A stretch of DNA of 24,319 nucleotides, taken from assembly GCF_025143365.1 (NCBI RefSeq), contig NZ_JALXPE010000059.1:1-24319 (forward strand). The letters run 5' to 3'. The translations under genes were made by a program, and so were the position numbers. This stretch comes from Microbacterium sp. p3-SID336. GTDB taxonomy: Bacteria; Actinomycetota; Actinomycetes; Actinomycetales; Microbacteriaceae. Of the stretch, positions 1 to 9,633 are shown one piece after another; the stretch's first letter is position 1; each line of letters starts with the position of its first letter. The notes beneath the pieces are model-generated. The model searched no databases. It saw only the letters and a list, made by a program, of their open reading frames with translations, and was not told the origin of the DNA.

Positions 1-3000
1 GGCTGCGTCGGCTCCGGCGTCGGATCAGGAGCCGGAGTCGGCTCCGGGGTGGGCGTCGGTGTCGGGGTCGGCTCCGGGGTCGGCGTCGGCTCGGGGGTCG
101 GGGCCGGCGCGGCGTCCGCCGGCACGGTCACCGTCACCACGGTCCGCACGGCCGAGTCGCCGTACTGGACGAGTCCGAGGTAGCGGGTGCCGGCGGTCAG
201 ACCGGTCCAGCTCAGCTCGAAGCTCGTCTTCTCCCCGCGCACCGCGGCGAGGGGGGTCGGCGTCGCGGTGAACGCGCCCTCGTCACCGGGGAGCACGTTG
301 GCGTAGGTCATGTCCCACGTCATCGGTCCGGTCGTCGAGTACAGGTTCGCCACCACGAGGTAGGTGCCCGGCGTCGGCGTCGGCACCGTGACCTGCTCGT
401 CGGCCGAGCCCGTCGCAGACTGCCACTGCTCGTAGTACCGCAGGTCCTCCGGACCCACCACCCGGTAGACGGTGAGGTCGAGGTCGCTGCCCTCGTCGTC
501 GGAGGAGTCGAGGTCGAACCGCGAGAGCGTCGTGCCCTCCGGCACCTCGACGATCCAGGCCACGTCCTTGTTCGCGTCGCCGGAGTTCTCGTTCCCCGAA
601 TGCCCCTCGACCGGGTTGTCCGGGTCGCTGAGCAGCTGGAACGGGGTCAGACCCGAGAGGTTCAGCGCCAGATCGCCGTCGAGGCCGGGGATGATGTCCA
701 CCGTCGTGCTGCCGTCGGCACCGCTGCCGGTGACCTCGGTCGGCGCATCCGCCGTGACCGGGAACACCGCGATGGGCGAGCGCACCGTGTTCTTGGCACT
801 CGTCCAGGTGAGCGCGCCGGTGGCCCACTGCTCGACGGGAGCGCTGGTGCTGTCGAACGTGACGGTGAAGGTCTTCGACTGCCCCGGCTTGTCGAACGTG
901 AGCTGCGACGGGGTGACGGTGACGTTCACGCCGGGGACCGAGGCCTTCGCGGTGAACACGCCCTTCTCGGTCGAGGTGACCGTGCGGGTGACGGTCTGCG
1001 CGCTGGCCAGAGACCCGATGGAGATCGAGGCCTGGTTCAGGTCGCTGCCGTCGATGGGGTCGATGCCGGGGAAGTCCGACAGCCCCTTCCCGTCGAGGAA
1101 GGCCGCCCAGTCCTTGTAGCCGTTGAGGTACAGCAGCCCCGGGTTCAGGTAGCGCTTGGCGTCGATCTGCCCTGCGCCCTGCTCGAAGGGGTTCGTGTTC
1201 GCCGAGCCGTCGGGAAGCACGGTGTCGGAGGCGGTGGTCATCATCGCCGAACGGATCTCCCCGGGCGTCGCCCGCGGATGCTCCCCGAGGTACAGCGCCC
1301 CGAGACCCGCGATGTGCGGGGAGGCCATCGACGTGCCGGAGAGGATGCCGAAGGTCGGCTGCTCGCCCGGCGCGTTGTGCGTGGCGGCGAGGATCGCGAC
1401 ACCCGGCGCCGCGATGTCCGGCTTCAGGACATCGGTGCCGTCCGCCAGGACAGGACCGCGGCTGGAGAAGCCCGCGATCTGCGGCGTCGGGGTGGTGACC
1501 CCGGTGGTGTTCTCGCCGACGAGGGTGATCGGGCGATCGACTCCGCCCTGCACGTAGGCGAGCACGGCTTCCCGGTGCACGGCGTTCAGGTGCACGGTCG
1601 GCACGGCGTGGAAGTCGTTGTCGAGCGAGTCCGCGCCACCGGGCACGTTCACCAGTACCATGCCGATACCTCCGGCGTCCTTCACCACCTGGGACTTCTC
1701 GGCGCGCGCGTTGCCGCCGCGGTCGCAGACCACGATGTGTCCCGCGACCTTCGCCGGGTCGAGGGTGCCCGGCAGGCACAGCTGCGCATCCACCGCACCG
1801 GCCGCCGCGGCGTCCACGGCGGCGATGGAGGGCCCGGAGACGCTCTGGCCGAACGGCACGCTCACGGAGGCGCCGGCCTGCGCGAACCCGTCGAACTGCA
1901 CAGTGCCCTCCCACGTCGGGATGGTGGAGGCGGCGACCGTCATGTACCAGGGCGACGCGTGGTCGGCCGTGACCGGATCCGGACCGTCGTTGCCGGCGCT
2001 GGTCGCGACGAAGACGCCGGCGGCTGCGGCGTTGAGGAATGCGAGGTCCTCCGGGGCCATCACGGTGCTCGCGGCACCGCCGCCGATCGAGTAGTTGATC
2101 ACGTCGACGCCGTCGGCGACGGCCTGATCGATCGCGGCGACGAGGTCGCTCAGCGCGCAGATGTCGTCCGTGGTCACGGTCGTATCGGGCCCGACGTAGC
2201 AGGCCTTGTACGCGGCGACCTTCGACCCGGGAGCGACGCCCGAGACGGTTCCGAAGTCGACGCCCTCGACCGCGGCCTCCACCCCGAAGTTGCCCGCCGC
2301 CGTGCTCGCCGTGTGCGAGCCGTGACCGTCGCCGTCCCGCGGCGAGAGGTAGTCGTACTGGAAGTCGAAGCCCGCGGCCTGGGCTCCCGCGAAGAAGTAC
2401 TGCCCGCCGATGAGCTTCGTCGAGTAGTCGCCCTTGTCCCAGTCCTGCCCTTCGACCATGGCGCCGCGGAACTGCCCGCCGTCGGACTTGTCGAAGTACA
2501 CGTAGGTGCCGTCGGTGTAGGGCTGCTGGCCCTTGTGGCGGCTGTTCTGCTTCTTCTGCTGCTTGAGCTTCTTGCCCTCGAACGACGGGTGCTCGGGGGC
2601 GATGCCGGTGTCGATCACGCCCACCACGACGCCCTCTCCGGCCTTGCTCACGCCTCCGGTCTGCTGCCACACGCCACCGCGGCCCCTGCGGTCGTCGCCG
2701 AGACCGAGGTAGTCGGTCGACGTCTGCGCATCGGGGTGACGGATCTCATCGGGGAACACGCCGAGAACATCCTTGGAGGCCCGCAGCTGATCCACCTGGT
2801 CGCCCGAGAGGTCGGCGCTGAACCCGTTGAGCACGACCTGGTAGGTGGTGTCCGGCGTGACGCCGACATCGTTGATGAGCGTGGACTGCTCGGACTCGAG
2901 GTGCTTGACGTAGCGCTGCGCATCCTGCGACTGCGTCTCGAGCTGCTCGCCTTCGGCGGGCTTCGTCGCCTTCAGTCCCTTGACGTCGCCTTCGTAGCTG

Positions 3001-3167
3001 GCGAGCGGATCGGCTTTCATGATCACGATGTAGTGCCCTGGCGTGCCCGCGACCGGGACGGGGTGCGTCACCTCCCCGGTCGCTGCGTAGCCGGCTGTGG
3101 CCGTCGATGCGATGAACAGCGTGGCCAGGGTGGTGGCCGCTGCCATCCGGAGGGGTGTTCGACCCAT
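1..3167 (-). CDS. Secreted subtilisin-like serine protease (S8), C-terminus beyond window
   Basis: Extracellular serine endopeptidase; 1055 residues are visible and the frame is still open at the left edge. The ATG at 3167 follows a GGGAG ribosome site and opens a signal peptide (about residues 1-28, hydrophobic core ATLFIAS, GYA|A cleavage region). An inhibitor I9 propeptide follows (about 45-145, starting HYIVIMK). The catalytic triad is visible: Asp186 in VGVIDTG, His282 in DGHGSHTAS and Ser613 in SGTSMASPHIAG; Asn393 in TSAGNDGP is the oxyanion residue. The long His-Ser spacing holds a PA (protease-associated) insert (about 440-530, LCLPG...VVCDRGG). Beyond the catalytic domain come an Fn3-like segment (about 690-740) and a pre-peptidase C-terminal-like beta domain, then a Pro/Thr/Glu linker at the window edge. 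Known for the family: autoprocessed exported proteases that degrade external protein. Inference: the linker may lead to a wall anchor or a further binding domain; this cannot be seen here. The native substrate is unknown. Confidence 0.95.
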   Translation of the reverse strand, partial: MGRTPLRMAAATTLATLFIASTATAGYAATGEVTHPVPVAGTPGHYIVIMKADPLASYEGDVKGLKATKPAEGEQLETQSQDAQRYVKHLESEQSTLINDVGVTPDTTYQVVLNGFSADLSGDQVDQLRASKDVLGVFPDEIRHPDAQTSTDYLGLGDDRRGRGGVWQQTGGVSKAGEGVVVGVIDTGIAPEHPSFEGKKLKQQKKQNSRHKGQQPYTDGTYVYFDKSDGGQFRGAMVEGQDWDKGDYSTKLIGGQYFFAGAQAAGFDFQYDYLSPRDGDGHGSHTASTAAGNFGVEAAVEGVDFGTVSGVAPGSKVAAYKACYVGPDTTVTTDDICALSDLVAAIDQAVADGVDVINYSIGGGAASTVMAPEDLAFLNAAAAGVFVATSAGNDGPDPVTADHASPWYMTVAASTIPTWEGTVQFDGFAQAGASVSVPFGQSVSGPSIAAVDAAAAGAVDAQLCLPGTLDPAKVAGHIVVCDRGGNARAEKSQVVKDAGGIGMVLVNVPGGADSLDNDFHAVPTVHLNAVHREAVLAYVQGGVDRPITLVGENTTGVTTPTPQIAGFSSRGPVLADGTDVLKPDIAAPGVAILAATHNAPGEQPTFGILSGTSMASPHIAGLGALYLGEHPRATPGEIRSAMMTTASDTVLPDGSANTNPFEQGAGQIDAKRYLNPGLLYLNGYKDWAAFLDGKGLSDFPGIDPIDGSDLNQASISIGSLASAQTVTRTVTSTEKGVFTAKASVPGVNVTVTPSQLTFDKPGQSKTFTVTFDSTSAPVEQWATGALTWTSAKNTVRSPIAVFPVTADAPTEVTGSGADGSTTVDIIPGLDGDLALNLSGLTPFQLLSDPDNPVEGHSGNENSGDANKDVAWIVEVPEGTTLSRFDLDSSDDEGSDLDLTVYRVVGPEDLRYYEQWQSATGSADEQVTVPTPTPGTYLVVANLYSTTGPMTWDMTYANVLPGDEGAFTATPTPLAAVRGEKTSFELSWTGLTAGTRYLGLVQYGDSAVRTVVTVTVPADAAPAPTPEPTPTPEPTPTPTPTPEPTPAPDPTPEPTQ
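3..119 (-). repeat. Pro-Thr-Glu-Pro coding repeat in the protease linker
   Basis: Degenerate short tandem repeat of units resembling cggctccggggtcggcgtcgg. On the minus strand, in the protease frame, it encodes alternating PT, PE and PA dipeptides (PTPEPTPTP-type). Such tracts are typical extended linkers between a secreted catalytic part and a C-terminal wall-anchoring or binding domain. Repeats of this kind are prone to length change by slippage. Confidence 0.8.
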
Positions 3168-3335
3168 ATCTCGCTCCCGATGATCTGGGTGCAGCGTCGT
3201 TGCCGCACCGCGGATCAACATAACCCCGCTCCTCGCCTCCGGATCGAGAACTGAACGATGGTCTGATGCGGGGGTGGCGATCGGTCAGGGTGGGCGGCGG
3301 CCGCCTCTGGCGAAGGTCGCCAGTAAGCTGGAGCC
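3168..3335. promoter_or_regulatory. Divergent intergenic region between protease and ECF S component
   Basis: This 168-base gap separates the divergently transcribed protease (minus) and first S component (plus), so it must hold promoters for both unless they lie inside the neighbouring genes. I see no confident -35/-10 pair, no iron box and no complete riboswitch. The plus-strand gene has a weak ribosome site, CTGGAG, just before its GTG at 3336. Confidence 0.4.
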
Positions 3336-3881
3336 GTGGCCCGAACCCCCGTCCTGTCGACTCGCGTGCTGCTGATCTGCGCCGCGATCGGCGTCGCGAC
3401 GGGCATCCTGGGCGGCATCGCCGGATGGGTGACGCCGGTGCTGCTCGCCAGCCCGCTGCTGTTCCTCTACGGCCTGGTGCTGGGGTCGCACGTGCTGCCC
3501 GGCATCATCGCGCAGGAGGTGCTGCGTCTGCCCCTGGTCGCCCTCATCGCGCACGTGTTCGCCGCGCTGGTCGCGAGCGCGTTCAACCCCGCCTGGGCGC
3601 TGCGGTTCATCGGCACGGCGCTGCTGTTCGGGCTGATCCAGGAGGGTGTCGCCGCGCTCACCCGGTACCGGGCCTGGGGTGCGTGGCGGTTCTTCATCTC
3701 GGCCGCGATCATCGGGGTGATCGTGGCGGTGGTGGTGTTCTTCGCCGCGAATCTGTCGGTGATGCCGCTGTGGGCGCAGATCCTCTACCTGGCGATCTCG
3801 GTGCTCGGCCCCGTCGCCTGGACCGCGGTCGGCCTCGCGGTCGGCTCCTCGCTGCGCCGGGCCGGCGTCGCCCGCCGCTGA
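3336..3881 (+). CDS. ECF transporter S component, YkoE-like (copy 1)
   Basis: Substrate-capturing integral membrane subunit of an ECF importer; 181 residues, nearly all hydrophobic, with about five or six membrane segments. GTG start at 3336 after CTGGAG. The pattern LPGIIAQEVLRLPLVALIAH, then a loop, then GLIQEGVAALTRYRAWGAW, resembles the YkoE family (S component of the YkoEDC hydroxymethylpyrimidine/thiamine-precursor transporter). It is clearly paralogous to the S component at 7584-8210: both begin with LLxCAALGVAxG, have an Arg-Tyr plus Trp motif mid-protein, and end in LRRAGV/LRAAGV followed by basic residues. It lies 115 bases upstream of the ATPase gene, and the iron box lies in that gap, so it may be transcribed separately. 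Substrate: the YkoE resemblance suggests a thiamine precursor, but the linked siderophore-interacting protein and iron box favour an iron compound. Neither is shown directly. Confidence 0.85.
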   Translation: MARTPVLSTRVLLICAAIGVATGILGGIAGWVTPVLLASPLLFLYGLVLGSHVLPGIIAQEVLRLPLVALIAHVFAALVASAFNPAWALRFIGTALLFGLIQEGVAALTRYRAWGAWRFFISAAIIGVIVAVVVFFAANLSVMPLWAQILYLAISVLGPVAWTAVGLAVGSSLRRAGVARR

Positions 3882-3941
3882 CGCCTCACATCAGCACGAG
3901 GTCGTACGCTCGCGCCGGCGCTCGTCCGCGCGATGGCGAAG

Positions 3942-3960
3942 GCAGGTAAGGCTCAGCTAA
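3942..3960 (+). promoter_or_regulatory. Candidate DtxR/IdeR iron box
   Basis: The 19-mer GCAGGTAAGGCTCAGCTAA matches the DtxR/IdeR consensus TTAGGTTAGGCTAACCTAA at 14 of 19 positions by hand count. It ends 36 bases before the GTG of the ATPase gene. A TAAGTT that could serve as a -10 hexamer begins inside its right end (3958-3963), so a bound repressor would block transcription. Known: iron-loaded DtxR/IdeR represses siderophore and iron-uptake genes in actinobacteria. Inference: the ATPase, T, reductase and second S genes are induced by iron starvation. Confidence 0.65.
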
Positions 3961-3996
3961 GTTAGAGGCACATCTCCCTCGAACCCGGAAACCGTC

Positions 3997-5886
3997 GTGC
4001 CCTCATCTGTGCCCCTGCTCCGCGTGTGCGAGCTCACCCTCACGCACGCCGATGCGACGCACCCGTCCCCGCGCGACGTCACGTTCGACATCACCCCCGG
4101 GGAGGTCGTGCTGCTGCTCGGGCCGTCCGGCTCCGGCAAGTCCACCCTCACCCTCGCCCTGAACGGCCTCATCCCGCACGCGCTGCCCGCGCAGATGACC
4201 GGGACGGTCGAGGCCGGGGGCATCGACACCGCCACCGCACAGACCGCCACCCTGAGCACGCACGTGGCGATGGTGTTCCAGGACCCGGACGCCCAGATCG
4301 TCACGGGCACCGTGTACGACGAGGTCGCATTCGGGCCCGAGAACCTGCTGCTCCCGCTCGAGACGGTGCGCGCCCGCGTCGAGGACGCGCTGCGCCGGGT
4401 GGGACTCTGGGAGCGGCGGGACGACAACCCCGATCACCTCTCCGGCGGCGGGCGACAGCGCCTCGCGATCGCCTGCGCCCTGGCGATGGGCTCACCGCTG
4501 ATCGTGCTCGACGAGCCCACCGCGAACCTCGACCCGCAGGGCATCGACGACGTCTACGCCGCCCTGACGGACGTGGTGGCCGCCGGCGACAGGGCCATCC
4601 TGCTCGTGGAGCACAACCTGGACGCCGCGATGGCGTTCGTCACCCGGACCATCGTGCTGGACCGTGACGGACGCGTGGCGTTCGACGGCCCCGCGGCCTC
4701 GATCATCCGGGAACACGCCGACGAGCTCGTGGCGATGGGCGTGTGGCTGCCCGCCGCCACCCTCGCCGCCCTGCGCCTGCGCCGTCAGGGCCACCGACTC
4801 GACCCGCTGCCGCTCTCGCCCGGGGAGCTCGCTGCCGCGCTCGCCTCGGCACCGGAATCGGCGCGGCACGGCGGGACACTCACCGTCGCCACTCCCGCGC
4901 CGGGCTCTCCGGCCACTCCCGCTGGCACTCCGGCGCCCGGCTCTCCGGCCACTCCCGCCACCGGCGTCTCCGCCGCGGCTCCCGCGCCCGGGTCTCCGGG
5001 CACTCCCACCGCTGGCGTCTCCACCGCGGCTCCCGCTGCCCGCGCTCCCGCCACTCCCGCCCGCGAGGCGAACACGGAACCGGGGCGCGGCGACGCCTCC
5101 CGTCCCGTCTCCGACGGAGGGGCGGCACCCATCATCCGCGCGCGCGACCTCACGGTGACCCGACGACGCACGCCGATCCTGCACGGCATCGACCTCGACC
5201 TCGACGCCGGGACCTTCACCGCGATCGTCGGGGCGAACGGTGCGGGCAAGACCACGCTCATCCAGGCGCTCGCCGGGGTCGTCCCGCCGCCGCGCGGCCG
5301 GATCTCGATCGACGGCATCGACCCGGGCACCGCGTCGCCGCGCGACCTCGCCGCCCGCATCGGGTTCGTGTTCCAGAACCCCGAGCATCAGTTCATCGCC
5401 GCGACCGTGTTCGACGAACTCGCGCACGGGCTGCGGCTGCGGCACGTGCCGGACGACGAGGTGACCGCGCGCGTCGACGAGATGCTGACGCGGTTCGGTC
5501 TCGCGCACAAGGCGGCGGTGCATCCGTTCCTGCTCTCCGGCGGCGAGAAGCGACGGCTGTCCGTCGGCACAGCCCTCATCACCCGCCCTCGGGTGCTCGC
5601 GCTCGACGAGCCGACGTTCGGCCAGGATCGGGCCAGAGCCGCCGAACTGCTCGACCTGCTGCAGAGCCTGCGCGCGGACGGCACCACCGTGGTCATCGTC
5701 ACGCACGACCTGCAGCTGGTGGCCGAGCACACCACGCACACGCTCGTGCTCGCGGACGGCAGGGTCGCAGCGGCCGGCCCCACGGCGGAGCTGTTCTCCG
5801 ATCCGGCGCTGTTCGCCCGCGCCGGCCTGCGGCTCCCCGCCCTGCAGCGCGTGCTCGCCGACGCCGGAGTGGCGGTGGCCCCGTGA
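3997..5886 (+). CDS. ECF transporter ATPase, two fused nucleotide-binding domains (A1A2)
   Basis: Energising ATPase of the ECF importer, 629 residues, on the cytoplasmic face. Domain 1: Walker A GPSGSGKST (Lys48), Q-loop VFQDPDAQ, signature LSGGGRQRL, Walker B LIVLDEPT, switch His in LLVEHN. Domain 2: Walker A GANGAGKTT (Lys418), Q-loop VFQNPEHQ, signature LSGGEKRRL, Walker B VLALDEPT, switch His in VTHD. Both domains keep all catalytic motifs, so both sites could hydrolyse ATP. Each has the acidic-groove type sequence (TVYDEVAFG, TVFDELAHG) typical of CbiO/EcfA proteins. The architecture matches YkoD-type fusions. Between the domains is an odd Ala/Pro/Thr/Gly-rich linker (about residues 290-375). 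The GTG at 3997 has only a weak site (GGAA) before it; a GTG at 4009 is the alternative. The stop overlaps the T-component start (GTGA), implying translational coupling. Confidence 0.95.
   Translation: MPSSVPLLRVCELTLTHADATHPSPRDVTFDITPGEVVLLLGPSGSGKSTLTLALNGLIPHALPAQMTGTVEAGGIDTATAQTATLSTHVAMVFQDPDAQIVTGTVYDEVAFGPENLLLPLETVRARVEDALRRVGLWERRDDNPDHLSGGGRQRLAIACALAMGSPLIVLDEPTANLDPQGIDDVYAALTDVVAAGDRAILLVEHNLDAAMAFVTRTIVLDRDGRVAFDGPAASIIREHADELVAMGVWLPAATLAALRLRRQGHRLDPLPLSPGELAAALASAPESARHGGTLTVATPAPGSPATPAGTPAPGSPATPATGVSAAAPAPGSPGTPTAGVSTAAPAARAPATPAREANTEPGRGDASRPVSDGGAAPIIRARDLTVTRRRTPILHGIDLDLDAGTFTAIVGANGAGKTTLIQALAGVVPPPRGRISIDGIDPGTASPRDLAARIGFVFQNPEHQFIAATVFDELAHGLRLRHVPDDEVTARVDEMLTRFGLAHKAAVHPFLLSGGEKRRLSVGTALITRPRVLALDEPTFGQDRARAAELLDLLQSLRADGTTVVIVTHDLQLVAEHTTHTLVLADGRVAAAGPTAELFSDPALFARAGLRLPALQRVLADAGVAVAP
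4888..5066 (+). repeat. Ala/Pro-rich low-complexity repeat between the two ATPase domains
   Basis: Imperfect tandem copies of a unit like gcccgggctctccggccactcccgc encode runs of APGSPATPA and GVSAAAPAPGSP type. The tract separates the two nucleotide-binding domains and has no predicted fold. It probably acts as a flexible tether and may vary in length between strains. Confidence 0.75.
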
Positions 5887-6701
5887 CCGCGGCCGCCTTC
5901 GACCCCTACGCGCAGCTGACGGCCACCGCACGCCACCAGTTCCTGTACGCGCTCAACCCGCTCGCGAAGGTCGCCGGGTTCGCCCCGGCCATGGTGCTGC
6001 TCGTCTTCGTGCGCGACCTGGCCACCCCCGCCGCGTTCCTGGTGCTCGCGTACGCCCTGATCCTGATCGGGGCACGGGTCACGCCCCGCCTGCTGGCGCT
6101 GCTGCTGATCGGGCTGCCCGTCGGCATGGCCGCGATCGCCCTCGGGTTCTCGCTGTGGGTCGACGCCGCGCGGGTGGACGAGAGCGCCCCCGTGCTGACC
6201 CTCGGCGGCTGGACGCTCTACAGCGGCGCCCTGCTGATCGGGGCGGCGACCGCGCTGCGCCTCGGGGCGATCGTGGCGCTCGCTCTCGTGGGCGGCCTGA
6301 CCACGAGCGGGTCCGACCTGGTGCGCGCCAGCGTGCAGCAGCTGCGTGTGCCGTACCGCATCGGCTACACGGCCCTCGCGGCCTTCCGGTTCGTACCGCG
6401 GTTCGGCCACGAGCTCTCCGTCATCCGCGCGGCGCATCGCGTGCGCGGGTACCACGGCGGCCGCGGCCCGTTCGCGCGCATCGCCCGCGGATGGGGGTAC
6501 ATCGTGCCCCTGCTCGCCGGTGCGATCCGCCACGCCGAGCGTGTCGCCCTCGCGATGGACTCCCGCGCGTTCGGCGCCCACCCGACCCGCACCGAGCGGC
6601 ATCTCGTGCCGTTCCGCCGGCGTGACGCGGTCTTCACCGTGCTCATGCTCGTGGCGTCCGCCGCGATCTTCCTCGTGTTCTTCCCCTGGCAGCTCCCCTG
6701 A
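5883..6701 (+). CDS. ECF transporter T component (CbiQ/EcfT family)
   Basis: Membrane scaffold that couples the ATPase to the S components; 272 residues. The GTG at 5883 overlaps the ATPase stop by four bases. Several membrane helices are visible (about residues 35-62, 68-92, 115-140 and a C-terminal one near 250-268). Two coupling motifs of the family lie in the cytoplasmic helical region: AAHRVRG (Arg186/Arg188, Gly189) and AMDSRAFG (Arg228). The N-terminal LNPLAKV segment is also typical of CbiQ/EcfT. Its place between the fused ATPase and the reductase makes it the shared T subunit for one or both S components of this locus. Confidence 0.93.
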   Translation: MTAAAFDPYAQLTATARHQFLYALNPLAKVAGFAPAMVLLVFVRDLATPAAFLVLAYALILIGARVTPRLLALLLIGLPVGMAAIALGFSLWVDAARVDESAPVLTLGGWTLYSGALLIGAATALRLGAIVALALVGGLTTSGSDLVRASVQQLRVPYRIGYTALAAFRFVPRFGHELSVIRAAHRVRGYHGGRGPFARIARGWGYIVPLLAGAIRHAERVALAMDSRAFGAHPTRTERHLVPFRRRDAVFTVLMLVASAAIFLVFFPWQLP

Positions 6702-6711
6702 AAGGCACCCG

Positions 6712-7587
6712 ATGGCATTCAGCAAGATGGTCAAGCCCGAGAGCGCCGAGCTCCTGCACCTCACCGTGCTGCGCAGCGAACGGCTGTCAGCGCACTGGAT
6801 GCGCGTGACCCTGGGCGGCGGCGAGATCGATCGCTTCCGGCCGATGGGCTACGACCAGTGGTTCCGACTCTTCCTGCCGATCGGCGGTGAAGCGGGGCTC
6901 GAGCGCGTGCCGGCGAAGGCCAACAGGATGTTCGGCTACCTCCGGTTCCTCCGCATCCCCGACGGCGAGCGGCCCGTGATGCGCAACTACACGGTGCGGG
7001 CGTATCGCCCTGCCACCGCGGACGCGGGCGCGGAGATCGACGTCGACTTCGTCCTGCACGGATCCGCCGACGACGGCACCGCCGGCCCGGCGTCGCGGTG
7101 GGCCGAGACCTGCACGCCCGGGGAGCACGTGCTCATCATCGACGAGGGCCTGGCCTTCAACCCGCAGCGGGGCACGGATCGGGTGGTGCTCGTCGGCGAC
7201 GAGACCGCGCTGCCCGCGATCGCGTCGATCAGCGGGTCGCTCCCGGCGCACGCGACGGGCACCGCGATCGTCGAGGTCCCGTCGGCGGAGGATGCGCTCG
7301 ACTTCCCCCGGCCGCCCGGCGTCGAGCTGATCTGGATCGTCCGCCCGGATGGCACCGCCCCCGGGATCCTCGCGCTGGAGACTCTCAGCCGCACCGAGCT
7401 GCCGACCGCGCCGTTGCACGCCTATGCGGCAGGCGAGCAGGCGCTGGCGTCGGGCGCCCGCAAGCTGCTGGTCGGCGAGCGCGGCGTCGACAAGAACGCG
7501 GTGAGCTTCTGCGGCTACTGGAAGATCGGCGCCGCCGCCCCCGCCTCCAAGGCCGCCCGCGAGGCCGCCGCGGAGCCCCGCGCATGA
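6712..7587 (+). CDS. Siderophore-interacting protein (FAD-dependent ferric-siderophore reductase)
   Basis: Predicted cytoplasmic flavoenzyme of 291 residues that would reduce ferric iron in an imported chelate with NAD(P)H and release Fe(II). ATG at 6712 follows AAAGG with a seven-base spacer, ten bases after the T-component stop. The FAD-binding signature RNYTVR is at residues 91-96 and the pyridine-nucleotide region contains VLVGDETALPAIA (about 160-175). The C-terminal VSFCGYWKIG matches the conserved aromatic end of SIP/ViuB/FscN-type reductases. The last 20 residues are an Ala-rich tail. The stop overlaps the next start (ATGA). A SIP inside an ECF operon is the main evidence that the importer carries an iron compound; alternatively the enzyme could serve siderophores imported elsewhere. 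Confidence 0.92.
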   Translation: MAFSKMVKPESAELLHLTVLRSERLSAHWMRVTLGGGEIDRFRPMGYDQWFRLFLPIGGEAGLERVPAKANRMFGYLRFLRIPDGERPVMRNYTVRAYRPATADAGAEIDVDFVLHGSADDGTAGPASRWAETCTPGEHVLIIDEGLAFNPQRGTDRVVLVGDETALPAIASISGSLPAHATGTAIVEVPSAEDALDFPRPPGVELIWIVRPDGTAPGILALETLSRTELPTAPLHAYAAGEQALASGARKLLVGERGVDKNAVSFCGYWKIGAAAPASKAAREAAAEPRA

Positions 7588-8210
7588 GCGGCACCGAGGC
7601 CACGAACGGCCGCGCCGGTGCGGCCGCACCGGGGTCGCACCCCGAACCGACGCCCGTCCCGGCCTCCCGGAGCCGCCGCTTCCGCTTCCCGACGGCGCTG
7701 CTGCTGACGTGCGCGGCGCTCGGCGTGGCGGGCGGACTGCTGCTCGCCCCCGCGAACTGGCTCTCGACCATCCTGTTCCCCGGTCTGCCGTTCGTGAGCG
7801 TCGGCCTCGCGGGGCTGTGGCTGCTGCCGTCCGTCATCGCGCTGCGTCTGCTGCGTCGACCGCTCGTGGGACTGCTGGTCGGCCTGCTCGCGGGGCTCGT
7901 GATCGTGCCCTTCTCGGGCTACGGCTTCGGCAGCGTCGCCACGAACCTGTGGTGGGCGGCCTTCACCGAGCTGCCGTTCCTGTTCGTGATGTGGCGGTAC
8001 TGGGGAACCTGGCTGCACTACATCGGCGCGGCCGTCGTGGGCATCGTGTATCCGCTGTTGGCGTGGGCATCGTTCGACCTGGGCTCGTTCCCGGTCGGCA
8101 CCCGAGTGCTGTTCTTCGCCATCACCCTCGCCAGCTGCCTCGGCGGCACCGCACTCGGCATCCTGATCGCGGATCGTCTGCGCGCCGCCGGCGTCGGCCC
8201 TCGTCGCTGA
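7584..8210 (+). CDS. ECF transporter S component, YkoE-like (copy 2)
   Basis: Second substrate-binding membrane subunit, 208 residues. The ATG at 7584 overlaps the reductase stop (ATGA), so it is translationally coupled to the iron-box operon. A polar N-terminal extension of about 35 residues, rich in Pro, Gly and Arg, precedes the membrane core that starts RFPTALLLTCAALGV. The core has about six helices, with FTELPFLFVMWRYWGTW in the position of GLIQEGVAALTRYRAWGAW in copy 1. The shared LRAAGV end and overall hydropathy show common descent with the protein at 3336. The loops and the binding region differ clearly, so the two probably bind different ligands or different forms of one ligand. 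Last gene of the operon. Confidence 0.87.
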   Translation: MSGTEATNGRAGAAAPGSHPEPTPVPASRSRRFRFPTALLLTCAALGVAGGLLLAPANWLSTILFPGLPFVSVGLAGLWLLPSVIALRLLRRPLVGLLVGLLAGLVIVPFSGYGFGSVATNLWWAAFTELPFLFVMWRYWGTWLHYIGAAVVGIVYPLLAWASFDLGSFPVGTRVLFFAITLASCLGGTALGILIADRLRAAGVGPRR

Positions 8211-8231
8211 GTCTTCCGATCGCCCCGGTCG

Positions 8232-8348
8232 CTACAGCGACAGGTGCAGGCGCAGGGCCTCGTCGAGTTCCGCCATCAGCTCTGCCGGAATCCAGCCGGC
8301 GGGGCGCACGATGCGCGCGACCGCCACGGTGCGCACCTGCTCGGCCTA
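8232..8348 (-). pseudogene. C-terminal remnant of a MazF/PemK-like toxin gene
   Basis: On the minus strand, 37 codons just after an in-frame TAG (8348-8346) and ending in TAG (8234-8232) read AEQVRTVAVARIVRPAG, then WIPAELMAELDEALRLHLSL. This is the pattern of the C-terminal end of MazF/PemK endoribonuclease toxins (Q-V-R-T-V, R-P-A-G, then an E-hDxALRLHL helix). The N-terminal two thirds with the RNA-binding and catalytic residues is absent, and no antitoxin gene is nearby. It appears to be a decayed, non-functional relic. Confidence 0.65.
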
Positions 8349-8411
8349 CTCCGGTAGCACCGTGGGTAGCACTGCTGGAATCGGGCACTGCCACGGCGAG
8401 CGTCCGGACGT

Positions 8412-8445
8412 GAACGCACCCCCGGAGGAGTCCGGGGGTGCGTTC
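8412..8445 (-). terminator. Hairpin terminator after acyl-CoA dehydrogenase
   Basis: Perfect 15-bp inverted repeat, GAACGCACCCCCGGA and TCCGGGGGTGCGTTC, with a four-base GGAG loop, 24 bases past the stop of the acyl-CoA dehydrogenase. There is no T-tract, as is common for high-GC actinobacterial terminators. It could also stop transcription coming from the ECF operon on the plus strand. Confidence 0.8.
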
Positions 8446-8469
8446 GGAACGTGCCGCGCGGGCGCCGCG

Positions 8470-9633
8470 TCAGCGCTTGCCGGCGATCTGCCGGCCGACG
8501 ATCTCGCGCATGATCTCGTTAGTGCCGCCGTAGATGCGGTGCACGCGGGCGTCGAGGAACGCGCGCGCGATGGGGTACTCGGTGATGTAGCCGTAGCCGC
8601 CGTGCAGCTGCACGCCCGCGTCGAGCACCTCCCACTCGCGCTCCGTCGCCCAGAACTTGACCTTCGCCGCCTCCTCGGCCGAGAGCTTCCCCTCCTTGTA
8701 GGCGAGCAGCGCACGGTCGATGTACGCCCACAGCGCGTCGACCGTGGTGGCCATGTCGGCGATCGCGAACCGGCTGTTCTGGAAGTCGATGATCCGCTCG
8801 CCGAACGCCTCACGATCCTTCGTGTAGGCGACGGTCCAGTCCAGCGCGGCCTGCGCGGCGGCCGCTCCCGCGACGCCGATGGACAGGCGCTCGAGCGGCA
8901 GGTTCATCATCAGCTGGATGAAGCCCTTGCCCTCGGCACCGCCGATCAGGTTCTCCTCCGGGACGAACACGTCGGTGAAGGAGAGCTCGGCCGTGTCGTG
9001 GCCGTGGAAGCCCATCTTCTTCAGCTTCTTGCCGTGCTCGAAGCCCTCCATGCCGTCTTCGATCAGCACCAGGCTGAACGCGTCGGGGCGGTTGCCCTCG
9101 CCGGTCTTGACGAAGGTCACGACCAGGTCGGCCGTGGCGCCCGACGAGATGAACGTCTTGGCGCCGTTGACGAGGTAGCCGCCGTCGACCTTCTTCGCAG
9201 TGGTCTTGATGCCGCGCAGGTCGCTGCCCGCACCGGGCTCGGTCATCGCGAGCGCGCCGATCACCTCGCCGGTCGCCATGCGCGGCAGCCACTTCTCCTT
9301 CTGCGCCTGCGTGCCCATGTGCACGAGGTACGGGACGGCCAGGTCGTCCTGGATGCCGAACGCGCCGGCGAGCGAACCCGCACCGGCCGCGATCACCTCT
9401 TCGTTCACGATCGCGCGGAACCGATAGTCCTGCAGCATTCCCGCACCGCCGAACTCCTCGGGCACCGACAGGCCGATCAGCCCGGACTCGCCGGCCGCGC
9501 GCATCGTGGCGCGGTCGACCTCACCGTCGGCGTCCCACTTCTCGATCGCCTCACCCGTCACGTGGCGCTTGACGAAGTCCTTGACGAGGTCCCGGAATGC
9601 CTCGTGATCCTCTTCGTAGATGTCGCGTTCCAT
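8470..9633 (-). CDS. Acyl-CoA dehydrogenase (isovaleryl/long-chain type)
   Basis: FAD flavoenzyme, 387 residues (normal family length), that would introduce a trans-2,3 double bond into an acyl-CoA in fatty-acid or branched-chain amino-acid breakdown. The FAD/substrate signatures are present: ALAMTEPGAGSD (about 127-138), then FISSGATADL, and the C-terminal signature LHGGYGYITEYP. The position that holds the catalytic Glu in medium-chain enzymes is Gly here (RIYGGTNEIM). Instead LPLERL (Glu248) matches the helix-G base of isovaleryl- and long-chain-type dehydrogenases. The start is well supported by GGGAGGA (9644-9638) before the ATG. It stands alone, with no thiolase, hydratase or ETF gene next to it, so the actual substrate cannot be named. 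Confidence 0.93.
   Translation of the reverse strand: MERDIYEEDHEAFRDLVKDFVKRHVTGEAIEKWDADGEVDRATMRAAGESGLIGLSVPEEFGGAGMLQDYRFRAIVNEEVIAAGAGSLAGAFGIQDDLAVPYLVHMGTQAQKEKWLPRMATGEVIGALAMTEPGAGSDLRGIKTTAKKVDGGYLVNGAKTFISSGATADLVVTFVKTGEGNRPDAFSLVLIEDGMEGFEHGKKLKKMGFHGHDTAELSFTDVFVPEENLIGGAEGKGFIQLMMNLPLERLSIGVAGAAAAQAALDWTVAYTKDREAFGERIIDFQNSRFAIADMATTVDALWAYIDRALLAYKEGKLSAEEAAKVKFWATEREWEVLDAGVQLHGGYGYITEYPIARAFLDARVHRIYGGTNEIMREIVGRQIAGKR

Follow-up and report, generated by a model that had tools for sequence, protein, structure and literature searches.

ECF importers are known mainly for the uptake of vitamins and metal ions. IrtAB, an exporter-fold ABC protein, imports mycobactin and has a SIP domain built in. 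EqbHIJ of Streptococcus equi may be an ECF system. In the accessible part of its description, EqbHIJ is required for iron import via the siderophore-like product equibactin, adjoins a YbtPQ-like pair, stands under a DtxR-like regulator, and is not termed ECF (PMC3672683). The available portions of two further reports describe YkoEDC as a group I ECF transporter for thiamine/HMP with the structure 5edl (PMC5037267), and LhaSTA of Staphylococcus lugdunensis as an ECF importer for heme that is regulated by iron (PMC7299338). By the latter account, ECF import of heme is already known.

The locus studied here lies in a stretch of 24,319 nucleotides of Microbacterium sp. p3-SID336 DNA, hereafter the window, and runs in the order S1, iron box, A1A2 ATPase, T, SIP, and S2. 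Within what the available text on YkoEDC covers, the two systems are alike in the family and fold of their S components, in the types of A and T, and in the keeping together of the genes. Unlike YkoEDC, the present locus has lost Q95 and the acid at D131, has an iron box in place of the TPP riboswitch, contains two S genes, and has SIP attached. With LhaSTA it shares a predicted control of an ECF importer by iron and, as far as the accessible account of LhaSTA extends, the absence of a lipoprotein partner among the genes; that account gives LhaSTA a Fur box and the isd locus, whereas SIP and two S genes are found here. The likeness to IrtAB is the coupling of import to a SIP-type reductase, and IrtA is itself a match to the SIP of the window; the difference is that an ECF motor with separate S components takes the place of the exporter-fold protein. 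EqbHIJ, in the part of its report that is accessible, is similar in importing iron via an ABC system, in its DtxR-like regulator, and in the YbtPQ-like pair beside it, as in the related locus L218 described below. We consider it probable that the locus encodes an iron-repressed group I ECF importer whose substrate is a ferric chelate; a siderophore, or more than one, is the likeliest candidate. Visible in the sequence are the ECF parts, a conserved box, a recurrent linkage to SIP, and the loss of thiamine-contact residues.

The original prediction had named five genes, namely two YkoE-like S components, a fused A1A2 ATPase, an EcfT-like T component, and a siderophore-interacting reductase, with a DtxR/IdeR-like box before the ATPase gene. 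This gene set is real. Profile matches place every gene where it had been positioned and in the family to which it had been assigned, and the box was confirmed (Table 1). The coupling claimed for the last four genes was also found: the ATPase and T genes share 4 bases, T and SIP are spaced by 10 bases, and the SIP and S2 genes again share 4 bases.

Table 1. Components of the predicted importer locus, in window coordinates.
Feature	Coordinates	Strand	Description	Match
S1	3336..3881	+	YkoE-fold S component, 181 aa, 5′ of the iron box	PF09819, 40.8 bits
Iron box	3942..3960	+	DtxR/IdeR-type, 36 bases 5′ of the ATPase start codon	16/19
A	3997..5886	+	Fused A1A2 ECF ATPase, 629 aa	TIGR04520, 368.4 bits; TIGR04521, 363.1 bits; both above cut-off
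T	5883..6701	+	CbiQ/EcfT-type T component	PF02361, 89.5 bits
SIP	6712..7587	+	Siderophore-interacting FAD reductase, 291 aa	PF04954, 110.3 bits; PF08021, 93 bits
S2	7584..8210	+	Second YkoE-fold S component, 208 aa	PF09819, 39.8 bits

The PF09819 scores of S1 and S2 are to be read against a cut-off of 25.2 bits. Predicted models of both proteins match the YkoE structure 5edl, that of S2 (pLDDT 78.3) with a TM of 0.66. The T component scores 49.2 bits against TIGR02454, below the model cut-off of 111.8. Both domains of SIP, FAD-binding 9 (PF08021) and SIP (PF04954), lie above cut-off; among solved structures it matches SIP 2gpj (E 2.7e-26) and IrtA (5.9e-9), and its closest match with an organism name is from Microbacterium (87% identity). 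Two ECF ATPase domains, a T component, and an S fold were thus found, with the S genes kept beside those of A and T, and by these features the system is a predicted ECF importer of group I. The linker joining the two ATPase halves (4890-5070) is a repeat rich in Gly, Ser, Pro, Ala, and Thr. On the minus strand (3-3221), divergent to S1, lies a gene for a large secreted subtilase-type protease (Peptidase_S8, PA, fn3_6), which runs off the start of the window.

The box, GCAGGTAAGGCTCAGCTAA, was scored by counting matches to a 19-position consensus of the DtxR/IdeR type; the runner-up site in the window reaches 12. This count was adopted after a stricter pattern, allowing at most 3 mismatches, had given no match, and the site is hence good but not perfect. 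Simulated first-order Markov sequences as long as the window, 40 in number, contained no site of 16. Ahead of the ATPase gene, a site of 16 or 17 is present in all 30 complete Microbacterium loci, at −55 to −107 relative to the ATPase start. Of 77 additional loci that carry S or A, a site of at least 14 lies before S or A in 44 and one of at least 15 in 36 (raw counts 45 and 37 of 78, before the removal of L124, whose DNA is identical to that of L018). The corresponding counts for the control genes of all loci are 21 and 9 of 1173. Canonical YkoE loci score 13 at most (n = 34), a site of at least 14 accompanies 13 of 20 free-standing SIP loci, and DtxR-type repressors (PF02742) are encoded in all eight of the relatives' genomes tested. 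We infer that A-T-SIP-S2 is repressed by iron. Several observations count against an iron-repressed importer: a site of at least 14 is missing from 33 of the 77 additional loci, four sites of 14 (L071, L147, L153, L157) resemble matches to coding sequence, and S1 lies 5′ of the box. The box thus stands between S1 and the ATPase gene, which leaves S1 outside the box-led unit. Other genes intervene between S1 and the ATPase gene in four Microbacterium loci (L002, L003, L026, L027), and in L024 the two are 1.5 kb apart. In L219 (8202-8405), an iron box of 16 separates an S gene from a divergently oriented one that by eye is superoxide dismutase-like.

The survey of relatives proposed along with the original prediction was run, and the linkage of YkoE-like S genes to SIP recurs, iron boxes included. 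The comparison supports the suggested ECF route for an iron compound, as well as the box and the linkage to SIP. A scan of named genomes yielded 31 loci, all from Microbacterium; the order S1-A-T-SIP-S2 is present in 30, and the remaining one (L009) is at a contig end. Proteins of the S1/S2 kind (E 1e-25) were detected in 69 of 299 Microbacteriaceae genomes and 31 of 297 order-level genomes, two samples that overlap and in which 8 to 11 candidates were scored per genome, so that absences are not firm. The gene calls in related loci come from a script made for this analysis.

A tree of A and T from 67 loci was made quickly and without bootstraps, and takes in 7 of the 31 Microbacterium loci plus the window. 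SIP adjoins 23 of the 67, and its linkage state changed at least 10 times on the tree, 8 of the changes being forced by starred branches; the 44 loci without an adjoining SIP count against the siderophore reading. Gene orders containing SIP are S-A-T-SIP-S, S-A-T-SIP, A-T-SIP-S, A-T-S-SIP, S-A-T-S-SIP, and A-T-S-SIP-S. In L129 and L209, S1-A-T is present and SIP and S2 are absent. Downstream genes of these two loci are shared with the window, namely those of the acyl-CoA dehydrogenase (81-82% identity), VanY-type (57%), and radical SAM (63-67%) proteins; with the same flanking genes retained, the pair was gained or lost there. In L138 (3799-5376), a radical SAM protein is split by an intein-like stretch (PF14890, below cut-off). 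Across genomes, and with kinship ignored, 30 of the 69 ECF-positive genomes encode a close SIP of at least 220 bits, as do 7 of the 230 ECF-negative ones. This threshold was chosen after the list had been viewed; with E 1e-35 instead, each of the two groups yields 37 genomes. No match to SIP was obtained on plasmids at E 1e-60. A gene adjoining SIP in L158 (3865-4443) is an NADPH-dependent FMN reductase by Pfam, and one in L181 (13178-13762) looks by eye like it.

Proteins other than SIP can also be the neighbors. In L218 (1743-8495), a site of 15 precedes S, A, and T, after which two ABC proteins are encoded; the first is closest to IrtA, and the second has IrtB and YbtQ among its matches, ranked below P-glycoprotein-type chains. 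The layout recalls the equibactin locus. An alternative is that the system imports some other nutrient needed at iron shortage, for example a flavin or a cofactor that spares iron, with SIP as a co-regulated neighbor. Iron boxes are evidence of regulation and not of substrate, and the weaker fold matches of the S2 model include RibU and ThiT. We regard this alternative as quite unlikely, since the partners encountered across loci (SIP, heme oxygenase, IrtA/IrtB-like) are proteins of iron release or iron import. As SIP is the recurring one, we infer a siderophore as the preferred substrate. IucA/IucC synthetases, found in only four of the eight relatives' genomes, count against a siderophore; by the same number, the chelate need not be home-made. 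As its genes follow an iron-repressor site and adjoin that of an enzyme of the siderophore iron-release type, a vitamin-type transporter appears to have been repurposed for an iron-carrying compound in Microbacterium and its relatives.

S1 and S2 belong to the YkoE family and fold, which would be expected of an ordinary YkoE-type importer of thiamine or HMP. At the thiamine-contact positions W49, Q95, and D131 of YkoE, S1 has H52, F98, and V134, and S2 has W79, W124, and A160; W49 alone is kept, and in S2 only. Q95 occurs in none of 28 divergent S proteins versus 13 of 13 canonical YkoE proteins, and the D131 position is acidic in 1 of 28 versus 12 of 13 (D or E). E77 and Y46 were left out of this test because they vary in canonical YkoE as well, the E77 position being mostly Ser in canonical actinobacterial YkoE. 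H73 was considered as a substitute for the contact E77 and dropped, as the alignment with 5edl pairs it with E70. In addition, no TPP riboswitch was found in the window or in 15 divergent related loci. Each of the four Microbacterium genomes searched encodes an additional PF09819 protein of 123 to 131 bits, where S1 and S2 proteins score 38 to 48 bits. This high-scoring copy is the canonical YkoE, given that a TPP riboswitch is present at 19 of 20 canonical YkoE loci scanned, those four included. A profile built from 28 S1/S2-type proteins splits the PF09819 class: 14 of 296 genomes reach at least 175 bits, and the other genomes among the matches listed all stay below 75, again with 8 to 11 candidates scored per genome. 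On the riboswitch, residue, and paralogue evidence, import of thiamine or HMP is rejected as most improbable, and the doubt about thiamine voiced in the original prediction is upheld.

The original prediction had named a ferric chelate or heme. The SIP linkage favors the ferric chelate, while one relative sits in a row with heme oxygenase. Were heme or another porphyrin the substrate, it would be bound in S1 via histidines, a heme oxygenase encoded at another place would open it, and SIP would be in the operon merely because both respond to iron. ECF import of heme has a precedent in LhaSTA, as the accessible text has it (PMC7299338). The row in question (L083:6940-11169) comprises DUF2470, heme oxygenase, S, A, and T on one strand, from a genus represented by one genome only, and is possibly a heme-import operon of the same ECF family; its heme oxygenase gene is preceded by a weak box, with a score of just 13. 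Heme oxygenase is encoded in 63 of 69 ECF-positive versus 122 of 230 ECF-negative genomes, with kinship ignored, yet it adjoins the ECF genes in 1 of the 69 among the matches listed, and none was found among the 16 window genes scanned. H52 and H73 are present in all 33 S1-type alignment rows, where YkoE has W49 and E70, but S2 lacks them, as do most proteins of the S1 type in other genera. SIP is not known to be a heme enzyme. L083, the association with heme oxygenase, and the histidines of S1 make heme a real rival, though an unlikely one. S1 and S2 may differ in substrate.

If a ferric chelate is imported, as we prefer, the system could work as follows. At low iron, the DtxR-type repressor would leave the box and A-T-SIP-S2 would be transcribed. 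Without help from a lipoprotein binding protein, S1 and S2 would each take up a chelate on the outer side, and a single A1A2-T motor would serve both. Cytosolic SIP would then reduce Fe(III) and free the iron. More tentatively, and as a proposal that falls somewhat short of probable, such loci may represent a new class of ECF ferric-siderophore importers, whose S family has kept the YkoE fold and lost thiamine binding. In this proposal, one to three S receptors would be interchangeable on a single A-T module and would differ in the foreign chelate that they accept, a lipoprotein binding protein would be lacking, and pairing with iron-release partners such as SIP would have come about repeatedly.

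In the open-licence literature, as judged by its listings, no paper was found on an ECF siderophore importer in actinobacteria or of the present layout. For Leucobacter, the heme transport genes hmuTUV and efeUOB are reported, and ECF is not mentioned in the accessible part of that report (PMC6868719). A comparison of Microbacterium genomes, in its available portion, lists few siderophore biosynthesis genes but several transporters for iron-siderophores, which include siderophore interacting proteins without further specification (PMC7438953). The ECF genes of the present kind are currently annotated in Microbacteriaceae as cobalt or unspecified ECF components, and an ECF siderophore route, if true, would change this annotation.

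More distant PF09819 proteins occur in L086, L087, and L088 (about 7940-8525), where A or T is not nearby. Two loci carry three S genes per single A-T module (L180:10233-11353 and L181:8024-9796), which suggests receptor swapping.
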